Shown here piece after piece: positions 42,927-50,434 of a stretch of 64,000 nt of DNA. Origin of the DNA: Lysobacter niastensis (lineage in GTDB: Bacteria > Pseudomonadota > Gammaproteobacteria > Xanthomonadales > Xanthomonadaceae); the NCBI RefSeq assembly GCF_015453285.1, contig NZ_JADLZT010000001.1:372001-436000 (forward strand), read 5' to 3'. Made by a program: the position numbers and the translations under genes. The notes under the pieces were generated by a model that was not told where the DNA came from, searched no databases, and saw only the letters and a program-made list of their open reading frames with translations. Each line of letters starts with the position of its first letter. The stretch's first letter is position 1.

Positions 42927-43001
42927 GGGCGGTTAGCTCAGCGGTAGAGCACTACCTTGACATGGTAGGGGTCACAGGTTCGAACCCTGTACCGCCCACC
43001 A
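42927..43001 (+). tRNA. tRNA-Val (anticodon GAC)
   Basis: A 75-base tRNA with acceptor stem GGGCGGT / ACCGCCC, D arm AGCTCAGCGGTAGAGC, anticodon GAC (in CTTGACATG), T arm AGGTTCGAACCCT and an encoded CCA. The anticodon reads GUC and GUU valine codons. Confidence 0.97.
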
Positions 43002-43011
43002 ATATGTTGCG

Positions 43012-43044
43012 AACGGCCGGGCATTGCCCGGCCGTTCTGCTTTT
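43012..43044 (+). terminator. Terminator of tRNA-Val
   Basis: AACGGCCGGGC-ATT-GCCCGGCCGTT, a perfect 11-bp stem, followed by CTGCTTTT. The stem core repeats that of the terminators at 26561 and 32424. Confidence 0.82.
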
Positions 43045-43106: not shown

Positions 43107-43135
43107 TTGACTTGTCCCGGGGCAGCCACAACTAT
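43107..43135 (+). promoter_or_regulatory. Putative thrS promoter
   Basis: TTGACT (43107-43112), a 17-base spacer and AACTAT (43130-43135). The -35 is good and the -10 weak. A start near 43142 would put the Thr-rich leader ORF about 70 bases into the transcript, as an attenuator needs. The region 43045-43106 shows nothing else. Confidence 0.4.
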
Positions 43136-43210
43136 CTGCATGTATCCCCGGCCACTGGCCGAGACAGGACGAGAGGTGACCCGCGGACATCCGCCGGTCG
43201 AGCGTGCGAC

Positions 43211-43237
43211 ATGAGCACTACCACCCCCCATCGCTGA
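43211..43237 (+). CDS. Thr-rich leader peptide of thrS (MSTTTPHR)
   Basis: An eight-codon ORF, ATG AGC ACT ACC ACC CCC CAT CGC TGA, with three consecutive threonine codons, placed 110 bases before thrS and 23 bases before a rho-independent terminator. Its ribosome-binding site is weak (GAGCG). In attenuation, shortage of charged tRNA-Thr would stall the ribosome here. The name and role are inferred from architecture; too short for standard gene finders. Confidence 0.65.
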
Positions 43238-43281
43238 GCGCCGACGACGCCCTCCAATGACGGCGCCGCGGCGCCGTTTTT
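43238..43281 (+). promoter_or_regulatory. Attenuator: antiterminator/terminator upstream of thrS
   Basis: The terminator stem ACGGCGC-CGCG-GCGCCGT (43260-43277) runs into five T (43277-43281). Its 5' arm (CGGCGC, 43261-43266) can instead pair with GCGCCG at 43238-43243, directly after the leader stop codon. A ribosome that reaches the stop covers 43238-43243 and lets the terminator form; one stalled at the Thr codons leaves it free. This is the logic of an amino-acid attenuator for thrS. Confidence 0.7.
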
Positions 43282-43346
43282 CGTTTCTGCCCCTGCATCT
43301 CCATGCCAAGCCGCGCCGCCGGCGCGCCAGCCCATCGCTACCGACA

Positions 43347-45248
43347 ATGATCGCCATTACGCTCCCCGACGGCAGCCGCCGCGAGTTCGAACAACCCGTT
43401 TCCGTCGCCGAGATCGCCGCCTCGATCGGCGCCGGCCTCGCCAAGGCCGCACTGGCCGGCAAGGTCGACGGCAAGCTGGTCGACACCAGCTACCGCATCG
43501 CCAATGACGCCTCGCTCGAGATCGTCACCGACAAGCATCCCGATGCACTCGATGTGCTGCGCCATTCCACCGCGCACCTGCTCGCGCAGGCCGTGCAGCG
43601 CCTGTTCCCGGGCGCGCAGGTCACCATCGGTCCGGTGATCGACAACGGCTTCTACTACGACTTCGCATACGAGCGTCCGTTCACGCCGGAGGACCTGCCG
43701 GCGATCGAGGCGGAGATGCAGAAGATCGTCAAGGAGTCGCTGCTGGTCTCGCGCAGCGTGAAGTCGCGTGACGACGCGGTCGCGTTTTTCCGTGGCTTGG
43801 GCGAGGAGTACAAGGCCGAGATCATCGAGTCGATTCCGGCCAACGAAGATCTGAGCCTGTACTCGCAGGGCGAGTTCACCGACCTTTGCCGCGGCCCGCA
43901 TGTGCCAGGCACGGACAAGCTGCGCGCCTTCAAGCTGATGAAGGTCGCCGGTGCCTACTGGCGCGGCGACTCCAACAACCAGATGCTCAGCCGCATCTAC
44001 GGCACGGCCTGGCTCAACGACAAGGACCTCAAGGCGTACCTGACGCAGCTGGAAGAGGCCGAGAAGCGCGACCATCGCAAGATCGCCAAGCAGCAGGACC
44101 TGTTCCACCTGCAGGAAGAAGGCCCCGGCCTGATCTTCTGGCATCCCAAGGGCTGGTCGATCTGGCAGGTCGTCGAGCAGTACATGCGCAAGGTTTACCG
44201 CGACACCGGTTACGGCGAGGTGCGCTGCCCGCAGATCCTGGACGTCTCGCTGTGGCAGAAGTCCGGCCACTGGGACAACTACAAGGACAACATGTTCTTC
44301 ACCGAGTCGGAGAAGCGCACGTATGCGCTCAAGCCGATGAACTGCCCGGGCCATGTGCAGGTGTTCAACCAGGGGCTGCACAGCTACCGCGACCTGCCGA
44401 TTCGTTACGGCGAGTTCGGCGCCTGCCATCGCAACGAGCCGTCCGGCGCGTTGCACGGCATCCTGCGCGTGCGTGGCTTCACCCAGGACGACGGCCACAT
44501 CTTCTGCACCGAAGACCAGATCGAGTCCGAAGTCCGCGCCTTCCACGAGCAGGCGCTGAAGGTCTACGGCGACTTCGGTTTCAGTGACATCCAGATCAAG
44601 ATCGCGCTGCGTCCCGACTCTCGCCTGGGCGACGACGAAACGTGGGACAAGGCCGAGAACGCCCTGCGCTCGGCGCTGCGCGCGGCCGGCGTGGAATGGC
44701 AGGAACTGCCGGGCGAGGGCGCCTTCTATGGCCCGAAGATCGAGTACCACCTGTCGGACGCCATCGGCCGCACCTGGCAGTTGGGCACGATGCAGGTCGA
44801 CTTCATGATGCCGGGCCGCCTGGGGGCCGAGTACGTCGACGAGCACAGTCAGCGCCGCCAGCCGGTGATGCTGCACCGGGCCATCGTCGGCTCGATGGAG
44901 CGTTTCATCGGCATCCTGATCGAGCACCACGCCGGCCAGTTCCCGGCCTGGCTGGCCCCGGTCCAGGCCGTGGTCATGAACATCACCGACGCCCAGGCCG
45001 ACTACGTGGCCGAGGTCCGGAAATCCCTTGCAAATCAAGGGTTCCGGGTCGACGCCGATTTGCGGAACGAGAAGATCGGCTATAAGATTCGCGAGCACAC
45101 GCTGCAGCGCGTGCCATACCTGCTGGTGGTCGGAGACCGCGAGAAGGAAAATGGCCACGTCGCCGTGCGCACGCGGGGAGGGGAGGACCTGGGGACGATG
45201 TCCGTCGCCGATTTCGCCTCGCGTTTGCGCAGTGAGGGCGTACAGTAA
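43347..45248 (+). CDS. thrS: Threonyl-tRNA synthetase
   Basis: A 633-residue class II synthetase. It has an N-terminal TGS domain (about 1-62), an editing domain with [11 protein letters not shown] (about 74-84), the catalytic core with the zinc Cys333 in MNCPGHV and motif 2 around [20 protein letters not shown] (shown in part), and a C-terminal anticodon-binding domain (about 530-633). The start at 43347 ([10 protein letters not shown]) matches the family; a longer in-frame reading from 43257 would begin inside the attenuator. It heads the translation gene series. Confidence 0.97.
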
Positions 45249-45314: not shown

Positions 45315-45836
45315 ATCAGTACCCCCGAAAAGCCGAATCGAAAGAACCAGGAGATCCGCGTACCCCGCGTGCGCGTGATCGGCAGTGATGGCGAGATGAT
45401 CGGCGTGCTCACGCGCGACGAAGCGCTTCGCATGGCCGAGGAAGAAGACCTGGATCTGGTCGAAATTCAGCCCAACGCCGATCCGCCGGTCTGCAAGATC
45501 ATGGATTTCGGCAAGTTCCGCTTCGAGCAGCAGAAAAAGGCCAACGAGGCCAAGAAGAAGACGAAGCAGGTCGAGATCAAGGAACTCAAGTTCCGCCCGG
45601 TCACCGACGAAGGCGATTACCAGATCAAGCTGCGCAACATGCGCCGCTTCCTGGAAGAGGGCGACAAGGTCAAGGTCAACATCCGCTTCCGTGGCCGCGA
45701 AATGAGCCATCAGGAACTGGGACGCGAAATGGCCGCCCGGATCGAGGCGGACCTGGGTGATGACATCGTGATCGAGTCGCGCCCGCGCCTGGAAGGCCGG
45801 CAGATGGTCATGATGATCGCGCCCAAGAAGAAGTGA
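45315..45836 (+). CDS. infC: Translation initiation factor IF-3, non-canonical ATC start
   Basis: A 173-residue IF-3. The expected N-terminus ([20 protein letters not shown]) is in frame but no ATG, GTG or TTG precedes it; the protein most likely starts at ATC (45315), with GGAG eight bases upstream. E. coli infC uses ATT for autoregulation by start-codon discrimination, so the same control is expected here. The N-domain, basic linker ([14 protein letters not shown]) and C-domain ([12 protein letters not shown]) are complete. A GTG start at 45369 would delete the conserved N-terminus. Confidence 0.95.
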
Positions 45837-45837
45837 G

Positions 45838-45923
45838 GTCAGCGGCCAGTGGCCGCTGACACCCTCCCGCCTGCGGTAGAGGGGGAGGGAGAGGGAAGCG
45901 CCGCAAGGCGCTTCTTTTCTTTT
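45838..45923 (+). terminator. Double hairpin and terminator after infC
   Basis: First, a perfect 10-bp stem GTCAGCGGCC-AGT-GGCCGCTGAC (45838-45860) begins at the infC stop. Second, GAAGCGCC-GCAA-GGCGCTTC (45895-45914), with a GNRA-type loop, is followed by TTTTCTTTT. Together they should end most transcripts from thrS-infC. Confidence 0.85.
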
Positions 45924-46014
45924 CGGGGTGGCAGCGTCAGCCTCACCCAGTCCCTCGCCCTGAGCGGGGGCAGGGGCAGGCTCGGGACCAAAGCCCTGAT
46001 TTTCAAAGGAAAGA

Positions 46015-46043
46015 TTGCAAGCCAGGCGCCGAGCCCGCATAAT
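46015..46043 (+). promoter_or_regulatory. Strong promoter for rpmI-rplT-pheST
   Basis: TTGCAA (46015-46020), a 17-base spacer and CATAAT (46038-46043), close to the sigma-70 consensus. It lies between the infC terminator and rpmI, giving a 5' untranslated leader of roughly 145 bases. It makes the ribosomal-protein and pheST part an independent unit. Confidence 0.7.
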
Positions 46044-46196
46044 GTGCGGCCCGGTTCGCCGGGTTGTTGTTTGCTGTACCACGGACCTGTCGCAGATTTA
46101 TTTAGAATCAACGACTTACAAGCCGGCAAGGGCAGGACGGAAAGAGTGGCCATGCCACCGCCCAGGCCAGTGACCTAACTCCGAAAGGACATCGCA
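46044..46196 (+). promoter_or_regulatory. rpmI-rplT leader, possible L20 autoregulatory region
   Basis: A hairpin CCCGG-TTCG-CCGGG (46050-46063) followed by TTGTTGTTT lies close to the predicted transcript start. The rest (46080-46185) is a less GC-rich leader with AAGCCGGCAAGGGC-type segments, ending in the CGAAAGGA ribosome-binding site of rpmI. L20 represses its own operon through the leader in bacteria studied; whether this leader folds the same way is not known. Confidence 0.45.
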
Positions 46197-46394
46197 ATGC
46201 CCAAGATCAAGACCAATCGGGCGGCGGCCAAGCGCTTCCGGAAGACCGCTTCCGGCAAGTACAAGTGCGGCCACGCCAACAAGAGCCACATCCTCACCAA
46301 GAAGGCGACCAAGCGGAAGCGCAACCTGCGGCAGACGAACCACGTTCGTGCCGAGGACGCGGGCCGTCTGGACCGCATGCTTCCGTATTTGTGA
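46197..46394 (+). CDS. rpmI: 50S ribosomal protein L35
   Basis: A 65-residue, very basic L35 with the family N-terminus [17 protein letters not shown] and the C-terminal [19 protein letters not shown] precedes the ATG. It is 12 bases before rplT. Confidence 0.98.
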
Positions 46395-46406
46395 GGAGAC
46401 TGAAAA

Positions 46407-46766
46407 ATGGCACGAGTTAAGCGTGGTGTTACGGCGCGTCGCCGTCACAAGAAAATCCTGAAGCAGGCCAAGGGCTACTATCACGCCCGTCGCAAGGTCT
46501 TCCGCGTCGCCAAGCAGGCGGTGACGAAGGCCCTGCAGTACGCCTACATCGGTCGTAAGCAGAAGAAGCGCAATTTCCGTTCGCTGTGGATCACCCGCAT
46601 CAATGCGGCGGCCCGCATCAACGGCATGAGCTACAGCCGCTTCATGAACGGCCTGCTGAAGGCCGGCATCACCCTCGACCGCAAGGTGCTGGCGGACATC
46701 GCCGTGCACGACGCGCAGGGTTTTGCGGCGCTGGCAGAGAAGGCGAAGAGCGCGCTCGCGGCGTAA
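46407..46766 (+). CDS. rplT: 50S ribosomal protein L20
   Basis: A 119-residue L20 with the N-terminal [16 protein letters not shown], the helical [20 protein letters not shown] segment (in part) and the [13 protein letters not shown]-domain. It is an early 23S rRNA assembly protein and, in studied species, the translational repressor of the rpmI-rplT operon. Confidence 0.98.
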
Positions 46767-46827
46767 GTTGGTCGATCGCATGGCGTCCCGCATCGCCGGG
46801 GCCGTGCATCGCACAATGCAGTACACG

Positions 46828-46857
46828 CATGGGGAAGGGCGCAAGTCCTTCCCCATG
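46828..46857 (+). terminator. Hairpin between rplT and pheS
   Basis: CATGGGGAAGG and CCTTCCCCATG form a perfect 11-bp stem around an eight-base loop, followed by TTCGTTTCT. It resembles a terminator or attenuator, 57 bases before pheS. No Phe-rich leader ORF was found before it. Confidence 0.6.
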
Positions 46858-46901
46858 TTCGTTTCTGGGGCCCGGCATGGCCCCGATGGCACAAGACCTG
46901 A

Positions 46902-47909
<1,008 letters not shown>

Positions 47910-47917
47910 ACGTTGGC

Positions 47918-48038
47918 CGTCATCCCGGCCAAAACCGGGGTCCATTTTGACTTTGCCGTCAGGGCAAAGCAGGGATTCCGGGCTCGGGTGGCGCAAAGAA
48001 CAACAGCAACATGGATCCCGGTGTTCGCCGGGATGACG
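47918..48038. repeat. Paired inverted REP-like element between pheS and pheT
   Basis: A left unit, CGTCATCCCGGCCAAAACCG onward (47918-47945), and an inverted right unit (48011-48038, ATGGATCCCGG ... CCGGGATGACG) face each other across 65 bases. A smaller hairpin CTTTGCC/GGCAAAG lies between them at 47951-47969. The arms can fold back over about 28 positions. Such dispersed palindromes are common in Xanthomonadaceae; here one lies inside an operon between two subunits of one enzyme. Confidence 0.7.
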
Positions 48039-48061
48039 AGAAAGATCGGGATAGGCGAAGA

Positions 48062-50434
48062 ATGAAATTCTCCGAGAACTGGCTGCGCCAGCATGTGCCG
48101 ACCAACGCAACGCGCGAGCAGCTCGCGGCGACGCTGACCGCGATCGGCCTGGAGGTCGAGGAAGTGACCGCGCTGGGCGAGTCGCTCGACGGCGTCGTCG
48201 TCGCGCAGATCGTCAGCGCAGAAAAGCATCCCGAGGCCGATCGGCTGCAGGTTTGCCAGGTCGATACCGGCAACGGCATGGTCCAGATCGTCTGTGGCGC
48301 GCCCAACGCGCGTGCGGGTCTGAAAGCTCCGCTGGCAATGGTCGGAGCCAACCTGCCCGGCGACATCGCGATCAAGGCTGCCAAGCTGCGGGGCGTCGAG
48401 TCGTTCGGCATGCTGTGTTCGGCCAAGGAGCTGGGCGTGGACCCGGATGCCTCCGGCCTGCTCGAACTGCCGGCCGACGCGCCGGTCGGCGCCGCACTGG
48501 CGCAATACCTGGCGCTGCCGGACGCATCGATCGAGATCAAGCTCACCCCGAACCGCGCCGACTGCTTCAGCGTGCGAGGCATCGCCTACGACGTGGCCGC
48601 CGCCGCGGGCGGGGAAGTCGCGCCGTTCGACATCGCACCGGTTGCAGCGCAGTCGGATGCGCGCTTGGCAATCGAGCTGAACGCCGGCGCCGATGCGCCG
48701 CGTTATTGCGGCCGTGTCATCGAAGGCGTCAACGCCTCCGTGCCGACGCCGGTGTGGATGGCCGAGCGCCTGCGTCGCAGCGGCATCCGCCCGGTGTCGT
48801 TCCTGGTCGATGTCACCCAGTACGTCATGCTCGAGCTCGGCCAGCCGATGCACGCGTTCGATCGCGACACGCTGAAGGGATCGGTCGGTGTACGTCGCGC
48901 GCGTGCCGGCGAAAGCCTCAAGCTGCTAGACGGTCGCGATGTCGTGCTGGACGAACAATTCCTCGCGATTACCGACGCCGACCGCGTGGTCGCGCTGGCG
49001 GGCGTGATGGGTGGCTTCGACACGCGCGTGACCGATGCCACGAAGAGCGTGTTCCTCGAAGCCGCGCACTTCGCACCCGCCGCGATCATCGGCCGTGGTC
49101 GCAAGCTGGGCCTGCACACCGATGCGGCCCATCGCTTCGAACGCGGTGTCGCGCCGGTGCTGCCGGAAACCGCCATCGAGTACGCAACGAAGCTGATCGT
49201 CGACATCGCCGGTGGCGTGTCGGGACCGGTGGTCGAGGCCGCGTTGCCGGAACACCTGCAGCCGTCGCATCCGATCCTGCTGCGCCGCGCGCGCCTGGCC
49301 CGCGTGCTGGGCCTGGATATCACCGACGACCAGGTGGAGCGCATCCTGCGTGGGCTGGGTCTCGATGTTGAGAGTGCGGCCGACGGCTGGCGCGTGGTGC
49401 CGCCGAGCCGCCGCTTCGACCTGGCGATCGAGGAGGACCTGATCGAGGAAGTCGCGCGCATCCACGGTTATGACGCGATCCCGACGACGCTGCCGGGCGG
49501 CGCCTCGCGCCTGGTGGCGCCGAGCGAGACCCGCATCGACGAAGCCGCGGTGCGCCGCCAGATGACGGCGCGCGATTACCTGGAGGCGGTCAACTACGCC
49601 TTCGTCGATGCGCAACTGCTGGCTGACTGGCACCTCGCCGACGGATGCGTGCCGCTGGCCAATCCGCTCAGCGCCGAGCTTGGTGTGATGCGCACGTCGC
49701 TTCTGCCGGGCCTGGTCGCCTCGGTGGCGCGCAATGCCGCGCGTCAGCAGCCGCGAGTCCGGCTGTTCGAACTGGGGCGCGTGTTCGCCGCCAACGGCAA
49801 TGAAGCCCCGATCGAGACGCGCCGAGTCGCGGCCGCCGTGATCGGTGCGGCCCGGCCCGAGCAATGGGGCGGCGAGTCGCGTGCTCTGGGCTTCCATGAC
49901 CTCAAGGGCGACCTCGACAGCCTCGCATCGCTGGCTGGAGCGCAACTGGAATACCGCAGTTCGCAAACGGCCTGGGCCCATCCGGGCCGTTCGGCGGATG
50001 TCTATCGCGACGGCGTCCGGCTGGGCTGGATCGGCCAGCTGCACCCGCGCCTCCAGCGTGCCCTCGATCTCGATGCCGAGGTCCTGGCGTTCGAACTCGA
50101 TTTCACCTCCCTGTTCAGCCGGGCGGTGCCGCGGGCCGGGCATCTGTCCAAGTTCCCGTCCGTCCGCCGCGATCTGGCGTTCGTCGTCGCGGAAAGCGCC
50201 CCGTGGGCGGAAATCTCGTCGGCCGTCCGGGCGGCCGCAGGCCCGGCGCTGCGGGATCTGGTGCTGTTCGACCGCTATCAGGGCAAGGGCGTGGAACCGG
50301 GATTCAAAAGCCTCGCTATGGGCTTGATTCTGCAGGATGAATCGCGCACGCTGACTGACCGCGAGGTGGACGCGGCGGTGTCCTCGGTGACCGAGGCGCT
50401 GCAGCGCAGCCACGGTGCGGTCATCCGCGGTTGA
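48062..50434 (+). CDS. pheT: Phenylalanyl-tRNA synthetase beta subunit
   Basis: A 790-residue subunit with an N-terminal tRNA-binding (EMAP/OB) domain (about 40-148, SAEKHPEADRLQVCQVD), B3/B4 editing domain, B5 domain, a catalytic-like core and a C-terminal ferredoxin-like anticodon-binding domain (HLSKFPSVRRDLAF onward). The start at 48062 (MKFSENWLRQHV) matches the family. An in-frame ATG at 48011 would read through the REP-like repeat and is rejected. It lies 152 bases after pheS. Confidence 0.97.
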   Translation: MKFSENWLRQHVPTNATREQLAATLTAIGLEVEEVTALGESLDGVVVAQIVSAEKHPEADRLQVCQVDTGNGMVQIVCGAPNARAGLKAPLAMVGANLPGDIAIKAAKLRGVESFGMLCSAKELGVDPDASGLLELPADAPVGAALAQYLALPDASIEIKLTPNRADCFSVRGIAYDVAAAAGGEVAPFDIAPVAAQSDARLAIELNAGADAPRYCGRVIEGVNASVPTPVWMAERLRRSGIRPVSFLVDVTQYVMLELGQPMHAFDRDTLKGSVGVRRARAGESLKLLDGRDVVLDEQFLAITDADRVVALAGVMGGFDTRVTDATKSVFLEAAHFAPAAIIGRGRKLGLHTDAAHRFERGVAPVLPETAIEYATKLIVDIAGGVSGPVVEAALPEHLQPSHPILLRRARLARVLGLDITDDQVERILRGLGLDVESAADGWRVVPPSRRFDLAIEEDLIEEVARIHGYDAIPTTLPGGASRLVAPSETRIDEAAVRRQMTARDYLEAVNYAFVDAQLLADWHLADGCVPLANPLSAELGVMRTSLLPGLVASVARNAARQQPRVRLFELGRVFAANGNEAPIETRRVAAAVIGAARPEQWGGESRALGFHDLKGDLDSLASLAGAQLEYRSSQTAWAHPGRSADVYRDGVRLGWIGQLHPRLQRALDLDAEVLAFELDFTSLFSRAVPRAGHLSKFPSVRRDLAFVVAESAPWAEISSAVRAAAGPALRDLVLFDRYQGKGVEPGFKSLAMGLILQDESRTLTDREVDAAVSSVTEALQRSHGAVIRG

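Follow-up and report, generated by a model that had tools for sequence, protein, structure and literature searches.

How does Lysobacter niastensis control thrS, the gene for threonyl-tRNA synthetase (ThrRS)? The E. coli gene is the standard example of a synthetase gene whose own product regulates it at the level of translation, and thrS of B. subtilis is T-box controlled. For the gene in our window, the whole stretch of 64,000 nucleotides that was analysed, the original prediction had proposed a threonine attenuator, built from a short Thr-rich leader ORF and a pair of mutually exclusive RNA structures. Sequence tests in relatives support the attenuator interpretation once the antiterminator partner and the claim of a Thr triplet are corrected, and we consider it highly probable that the thrS leader is a ribosome-mediated transcription attenuator governed by the supply of threonyl-tRNA. 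The locus reads as follows.

Upstream of tRNA-Val: uvrB, first in the listed gene order
42927-43001: tRNA-Val gene, ending 209 bases before the leader ATG
43011-43037: terminator-like hairpin of tRNA-Val, from the terminator scan
43107-43135, forward strand: putative sigma-70-type promoter TTGACT-N17-AACTAT, score 8/12
43174-43281: leader region, between the promoter-like site and thrS
43174-43178, forward strand: Shine-Dalgarno sequence AGGTG of the leader ORF, upstream of hairpin H1
43178-43199, forward strand: hairpin H1, between Shine-Dalgarno sequence and start codon, supported by covariation
43200-43210, forward strand: conserved linker GAGYGTGYGAC, before the leader start codon
43211-43237, forward strand: leader ORF MSTTTPHR*, ATGAGCACTACCACCCCCCATCGCTGA, by direct reading of the sequence
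43217-43225, forward strand: Thr control codons ACT ACC ACC, codons 3, 4 and 5, of which 3 and 4 are conserved
43238-43249, forward strand: antiterminator 5' arm, directly after the stop codon (43235-43237)
43259-43281, forward strand: intrinsic terminator with 8-bp stem, CGCG loop and five T, from terminator scan and fold
43264-43274, forward strand: antiterminator 3' arm, made of the end of the terminator 5' arm, the loop and the start of the 3' arm
43347-45248, forward strand: thrS, threonyl-tRNA synthetase, the target gene (TIGR00418, 722 bits)
45315-50434, forward strand: infC, rpmI, rplT, pheS and pheT, downstream of thrS on the same strand

To compare this region across relatives, at least 80 named loci were taken from a scan with the thrS N-terminus, and ThrS searches were also run in 12 genus genomes and 297 family genomes; the thrS loci nearest to the source among the matches listed are mostly from Lysobacter, with L028 and L038 at 91-92%. 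An alignment, A1, was made of 57 of 71 distinct 5' blocks bearing GGTG (L036 and L061, without GGTG, and repeats were dropped), and a covariance model of the 5' block, R1, was built from it. R1 matched 275 of the 297 family genomes, among them 255 of the 269 that are of good quality, in 48 of 54 genera; nearly every matched genome had one match. Within the order it matched 36 of 121 genomes, 19 from the source's family, 16 from one other family and 1 from a third, and within the class 7 of 369. Five of these seven belong to the same order; the other two, L161 and L162, are weak matches (E 1.8e-4 and 0.002) and gave none to a DNA profile of A1. Outside the group, the plasmid collection that was searched held no match to the 5' block. 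The copies fetched are part of those found, mostly the best-scoring (30 loci and 80 regions, nine of the 80 from genomes without an R1 match). The DNA profile matched 183 of 227 loci, and 167 of the 183 are distinct, 75 of them fetched via thrS and 92 via R1; one species can recur among them. In all 167 distinct copies thrS follows on the same strand, its start lying 93-635 bases (median 151) from the leader ATG.

A motif surrounding the ATG had served to choose A1, and its conservation is therefore in part a product of selection; loci found via thrS alone make the fairer test. Removal of 20 betaproteobacterial and six other outside loci left 54 such named loci, and among the matches listed the 5' block is present in 49 of them. 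Four of the five blockless loci keep a Thr leader (L042 and L077 read MTRT..., L074 reads MSTRT..., and L053 is cut by a contig end), and one, L066, has none. The block is likewise absent from 22 of the 297 family genomes. Nine of these were read: six, all of genus g10, carry a different 5' block, two combine a Thr leader with a Shine-Dalgarno sequence directly before it, and in L234 no leader was seen. The block of the g10 loci (L227-L232) reads GTTCGAACGAACACGATCACC ATG ACG CGC, their leaders are of the form MTRT or MTRN, and a terminator again precedes thrS; read by eye, four of the six leaders hold a single Thr.

The leader ORF MSTTTPHR stands where it had been predicted, and in each of the 167 copies an ATG is followed by a stop within 9 codons, as leader function in the relatives had been expected to demand. 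The leaders are 5-9 codons long, 8 codons in 135 copies. Thr occupies codon 3 in 167 of 167, spelled ACT (ACU) in 164, and codon 4 in 156, with 11 copies lacking it there. Codon 5 is Thr in 74 of 167 copies. Thus one or two Thr codons are conserved, not three: the run of three consecutive Thr codons exists in this leader but is not kept as a triplet. ACT accounts for 2 of the 106 Thr codons in four genes of the 64-kb stretch, so its constancy in the leader amounts to an additional constraint. ACU and ACC are decoded by the same tRNA. A single invariant Thr codon is few for an attenuator and counts against the attenuation reading. A predicted leader ORF with codons for the amino acid of the downstream gene is a feature of attenuators of this type, and the thrS leader has one.

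Behind the leader ORF, the terminator scan found GACGGCGC-CGCG-GCGCCGTT at 43259-43278, with five T at 43277-43281; the original prediction had seen this terminator with its five T and had placed the stem at 43260-43277. The surrounding 1.3-kb region holds 4 terminator-like sites against 0.7 expected from shuffles. A terminator was detected in 161 of the 167 copies (87/92 of those fetched via R1, 74/75 of those fetched via thrS), and 157 terminators, 148 of them distinct, passed a filter on stability and U tract. In the six copies without a terminator, one (L102) has only TTT and the others (L132, L150, L170, L191 and L239) have no U tract; all six retain the leader. Beyond these, L068, L087, L171 and L226 failed the filter. 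In genus g27 (L150, L170, L239) the Thr leader ORF is retained with a hairpin behind it that has no U tract, and L171, a further g27 copy, fails the terminator filter; these copies perhaps use another termination route or carry a decayed attenuator. A predicted intrinsic terminator between leader ORF and gene is thus the general arrangement.

What would keep this terminator from forming? Folded alone, 43211-43281 takes the antiterminator as its best structure (z -2.5, a stability matched by 3 of 200 shuffles), and for the wider 43200-43290 z is -1.0 with 28 of 200 shuffles as stable; in DNA this rich in GC the excess over chance of a single sequence is modest, and it is the relatives that make the structure secure. 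Within the antiterminator, 43269-43274, part of the terminator loop and 3' arm, is the partner of GCGCCG (43238-43243), and two further sets of pairs join 43245-46 to 43267-68 and 43248-49 to 43264-65. The mutually exclusive antiterminator of the original prediction is therefore present, with 43269-43274 rather than 43261-43266 as the partner of GCGCCG, and its arm, expected three bases behind the stop codon, is indeed close to it and begins immediately after it.

In the relatives, the antiterminator arm covaries with the terminator loop, as the prediction had asked of both structures. Arm and loop change together as CTCGT with CGAGG, CTG with CCAGG, GTG with CCACG, CTTGT with CAAGG and TTCG with GCCGA. 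Over the 148 distinct terminators, duplexes of each post-stop arm with the loop of the same leader average -13.24 kcal/mol, compared with -11.47 (sd 0.17) when partners are permuted; 0 of 20,000 permutations were as good, a permutation that does not remove relatedness. Their own loop was ranked in the best quarter by 93 of 148 arms and in the best tenth by 53, and outside the best quarter by 55. The cognate advantage was also seen with loop plus 3' arm as the partner (-10.72 vs -10.31 permuted), with 5' arm plus loop (-10.65 vs -10.04) and with the whole terminator (-17.42 vs -16.17). The terminator 5' arm alone, the partner drawn in the original prediction, gave no cognate advantage (-7.25 vs -7.48 permuted), and we reject it as the conserved partner.

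When whole leaders were left free to fold, the antiterminator was best in 109 of 148, the terminator in 37 and neither in 2. Deleting the 10 bases that directly follow the stop codon made the terminator best in 119, with 29 in which it was still not best; with the last 10 bases removed instead, the terminator was best in 69. The antiterminator was preferred in 30% of cases with shuffled arms and in 54% with the arms of other species. Its first pair lies a median of 3 bases after the stop codon, and the stop codon is at most 12 bases before the arm in 133 of 148 leaders. Codon 3 begins a median of 24 bases before the arm and never fewer than 20 (148/148); this distance is 24-25 in leaders of 6-8 codons and 30 in three leaders of 9 codons, a constancy that may simply reflect point changes without indels. 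A ribosome reaches some 12-13 bases from its A-site codon. As modelled, the antiterminator excludes the terminator and is within reach of a ribosome at the stop codon but not of one at the control codons.

Two other pairings were looked for in the leader. Between leader ORF and post-stop arm, where leaders of the enteric type (trp, his) form a 1:2, or anti-antiterminator, hairpin, there was no clear pairing, and 954 of 10,000 permutations were as good. The predicted fold also offers a hairpin, GUGC-GACAUGA-GCAC, whose loop would hold the AUG; covariation speaks neither for nor against it, since its columns are almost invariant or its pairs are lost where codon 2 changes.

The mechanism that we propose runs as follows. 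With ample Thr-tRNA, a ribosome would translate all 8 codons, reach the stop codon and cover the antiterminator arm, the terminator would form, and transcription would end near 43281. When Thr-tRNA is scarce, through low threonine or too little ThrRS, the ribosome would pause on one of the Thr codons 3 and 4, leaving the arm, some 20 bases ahead of it, free to pair with the loop and 3' arm of the terminator, and RNA polymerase would continue into thrS. Since there is no sign of a 1:2 hairpin, an untranslated leader should mostly read through. In this scheme we infer the promoter, the positions of the ribosome, termination itself and the response to threonine.

Leader RNA made from the putative promoter would start near 43142. 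A stricter promoter scan of the same region missed this site; scores of at least 8 were reached in 68 of the 102 copies whose upstream sequence was long enough, compared with 7 of 306 mononucleotide shuffles. In the three relatives examined for this, L028, L034 and L124, the best promoter-like score before the leader is only 3-5 of 12, so the leader there may be transcribed from further upstream. At the other end, 109 bases lie between the leader stop codon and the thrS ATG at 43347. The attenuator would act on thrS, and infC, rpmI, rplT, pheS and pheT are possibly under its control as well. The start of infC seems to be ATC at 45315-45317 (GGAGATTGCAAC ATC AGT ACC), with a similar stretch in the loci of relatives; E. 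coli infC, too, has an unusual start codon, AUU. A strong hairpin at 46829-46864 (ATGGGGAAGG...CCTTCCCCAT) and GTTCGTTT lie between rplT and pheS. Lying ahead of pheST, this hairpin may be another point of control; inspection by eye showed no Phe-rich leader there.

The leader start codon would itself be served by a Shine-Dalgarno sequence from which H1 separates it. H1 pairs 43178-43181 with 43196-43199 and 43183-43185 with 43192-43194, with a C.C mismatch between the two helices. In the alignment, 97.0% of cells are paired and 6 of the 7 pairs show changes on both sides, which number 35 cells against 7.3 in shuffles (0/500). GGTG stands upstream of H1 in 164 of 167 copies (AGGTG in 136, GGGTG in 26, other forms in two); the three exceptions have AGGA there. 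At -48 to -25, at least 5 bases of AAGGAGGTGATC are found in 142 copies, and 162 of the 167 have no Shine-Dalgarno match of 4 or more bases at -16 to -3. In three loci that lack H1 (L233, L235 and L074), GAGGTG sits 4-5 bases ahead of the ATG, in keeping with a bridging of H1 where it is present. Seven of the ten linker positions from -10 to -1 are identical in all 167 copies and one more in 165, partly through selection via the profile. The placement of the putative leader Shine-Dalgarno sequence, parted from its AUG by a covarying hairpin, is a newly seen feature. It is conceivable, if rather unlikely, that H1 and the linker GAGYGUGYGAC form a second sensor, in which whatever binds or opens H1 would set leader translation, and so termination, beyond the test made by the Thr codons; ThrRS and ribosomal protein S1 are the obvious candidate binders.

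Could the same RNA be controlled in another way altogether? If ThrRS bound H1 or the linker, the leader could be a site of translational or protein-bound control like the E. coli thrS operator, with the ORF secondary. H1 splits the ribosome site of the leader and covaries, and PMC3858243 describes a ribosome site of E. coli thrS that is also interrupted by a hairpin recognised by ThrRS. However, the loops of H1 vary (G-GNRA-C in 104 of 167 copies, others in 63), no constant anticodon-like triplet was seen in them in the alignment, and the element lies by the leader ORF, whose ATG precedes thrS by 93-635 bases. The Thr codons and the covariation of antiterminator and loop would be left unexplained, and we regard this reading as very improbable.

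The leader ORF might instead act through translation coupling, reinitiation or Rho, with no part for the intrinsic terminator, and the five copies that keep a Thr leader without a U tract (L132, L150, L170, L191, L239) speak for it. Set against the terminator in 161 of 167 copies and a loop that covaries with the arm behind the stop codon, it seems to us very improbable. The proximity of the tRNA-Val gene, 209 bases before the leader ATG, allows another view, in which the terminator is a common one, serving the tRNA-Val transcript or a small RNA, and the ORF is there by chance. But tRNA-Val has its own terminator-like hairpin at 43011-43037, and an ORF with Thr at codon 3 in every copy is not a matter of chance; this explanation is extremely unlikely. 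Ribosome-mediated attenuation remains our preferred account of the leader.

Similar leaders occur beyond the order. Among the matches listed, a clear Thr leader precedes thrS in 17 of 20 betaproteobacterial loci (examples are MTPRTTTKLWE, MFRTTTVAGN and MTPRTLTETTSERR); L091 and L104 are weaker candidates, and L106 resembles L091. The scan found a terminator in 15 of the 17, missing it in L094 and L098. In these 15, bases at the stop codon or just behind it are possible partners of the terminator loop (CTAGT with CGCTAGTCG, TCGAAAGC with CGCTAGTCGAGG), and this pairing is weak in L085 and L105; the cognate advantage is weaker here, 358 of 20,000 permutations being as good (n=15, related sequences). 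These leaders (MTPRT..., FRTTT...) share the Thr leader and terminator with the leader described here but have neither H1 nor a common 5' block. Many betaproteobacterial thrS genes thus carry a similar putative leader. A DNA pattern written for it matched 9 of 369 class genomes, two exactly, so that the form looks narrow in the class sample or the pattern too strictly written. The six other outside loci (L079, L082, L090, L092, L096 and L101) showed no clear Thr leader.

One leader stands apart from its gene. The absence of a leader from L116, the thrS locus of genome G098, prompted a look at the R1 match of that genome, which is outside the 167. There the leader reads MRTTALS and stands with its terminator on a different contig (L259, 1536-2989), where the gene that follows is a phage-type integrase gene (PF00589) and not thrS. 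Both sides, L259 and L116, share CTTTTTTGTT, the U tract of the terminator, which suggests that a mobile element entered at the terminator; the terminator of the attenuator may be the attachment site of such an element.

How does the thrS leader compare with known systems? Attenuation by a leader peptide is known for the thr operon, whose Thr leader has Thr codons in its peptide and controls a terminator. The thrS leader differs from the Rfam family of that name, Thr leader (RF00506; named so in PMC3766115), in target gene and in sequence, and the RF00506 covariance model found no match in the 64-kb stretch at the gathering score, nor in nine loci at E up to 0.5. The same searches gave no T-box family match, and the leader matched no named Rfam family. 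Among synthetase genes, PMC1262725 describes leader-peptide attenuation for pheST of gamma-proteobacteria and, as predictions, for trpS and leuS of some Streptomyces. The thrS leader is like these in having codons for its own amino acid in a leader peptide, with terminator and antiterminator upstream of the gene. Compared with their general layout, it differs in its target, in a leader that has 5-9 codons and a single invariant Thr among them, in the lack of a clear 1:2 hairpin and in the hairpin between Shine-Dalgarno sequence and start codon.

With the E. coli thrS operator, as described in PMC3858243 and PMC3936740, it shares the gene controlled and a hairpin that interrupts a ribosome site. 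In E. coli the split site is that of thrS itself, its distal part is U-rich and ThrRS is the ligand and repressor (PMC3858243); here the site would be that of the leader ORF, with the Shine-Dalgarno sequence as the distal part, and the outcome would be termination rather than repression by ThrRS. In H1, the hairpin compared, no constant loop like the tRNA-Thr anticodon was seen, unlike in the E. coli operator.

Leader-peptide attenuation of thrS was not found in the titles and abstract beginnings searched. A 2004 survey of attenuators in proteobacteria, which falls outside that scope, may already list thrS.

In conclusion, judged from its sequence, the thrS leader is most probably ribosome-mediated attenuation in a new form. 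Unlike E. coli, two bacterial groups appear to govern thrS by leader-peptide attenuation, and they would do so with a leader very small in layout. That a Shine-Dalgarno sequence may act across a conserved hairpin is a claim open to direct test. If H1 did serve as a second sensor, one RNA of about 110 bases would read both the level of the synthetase and its charged tRNA.
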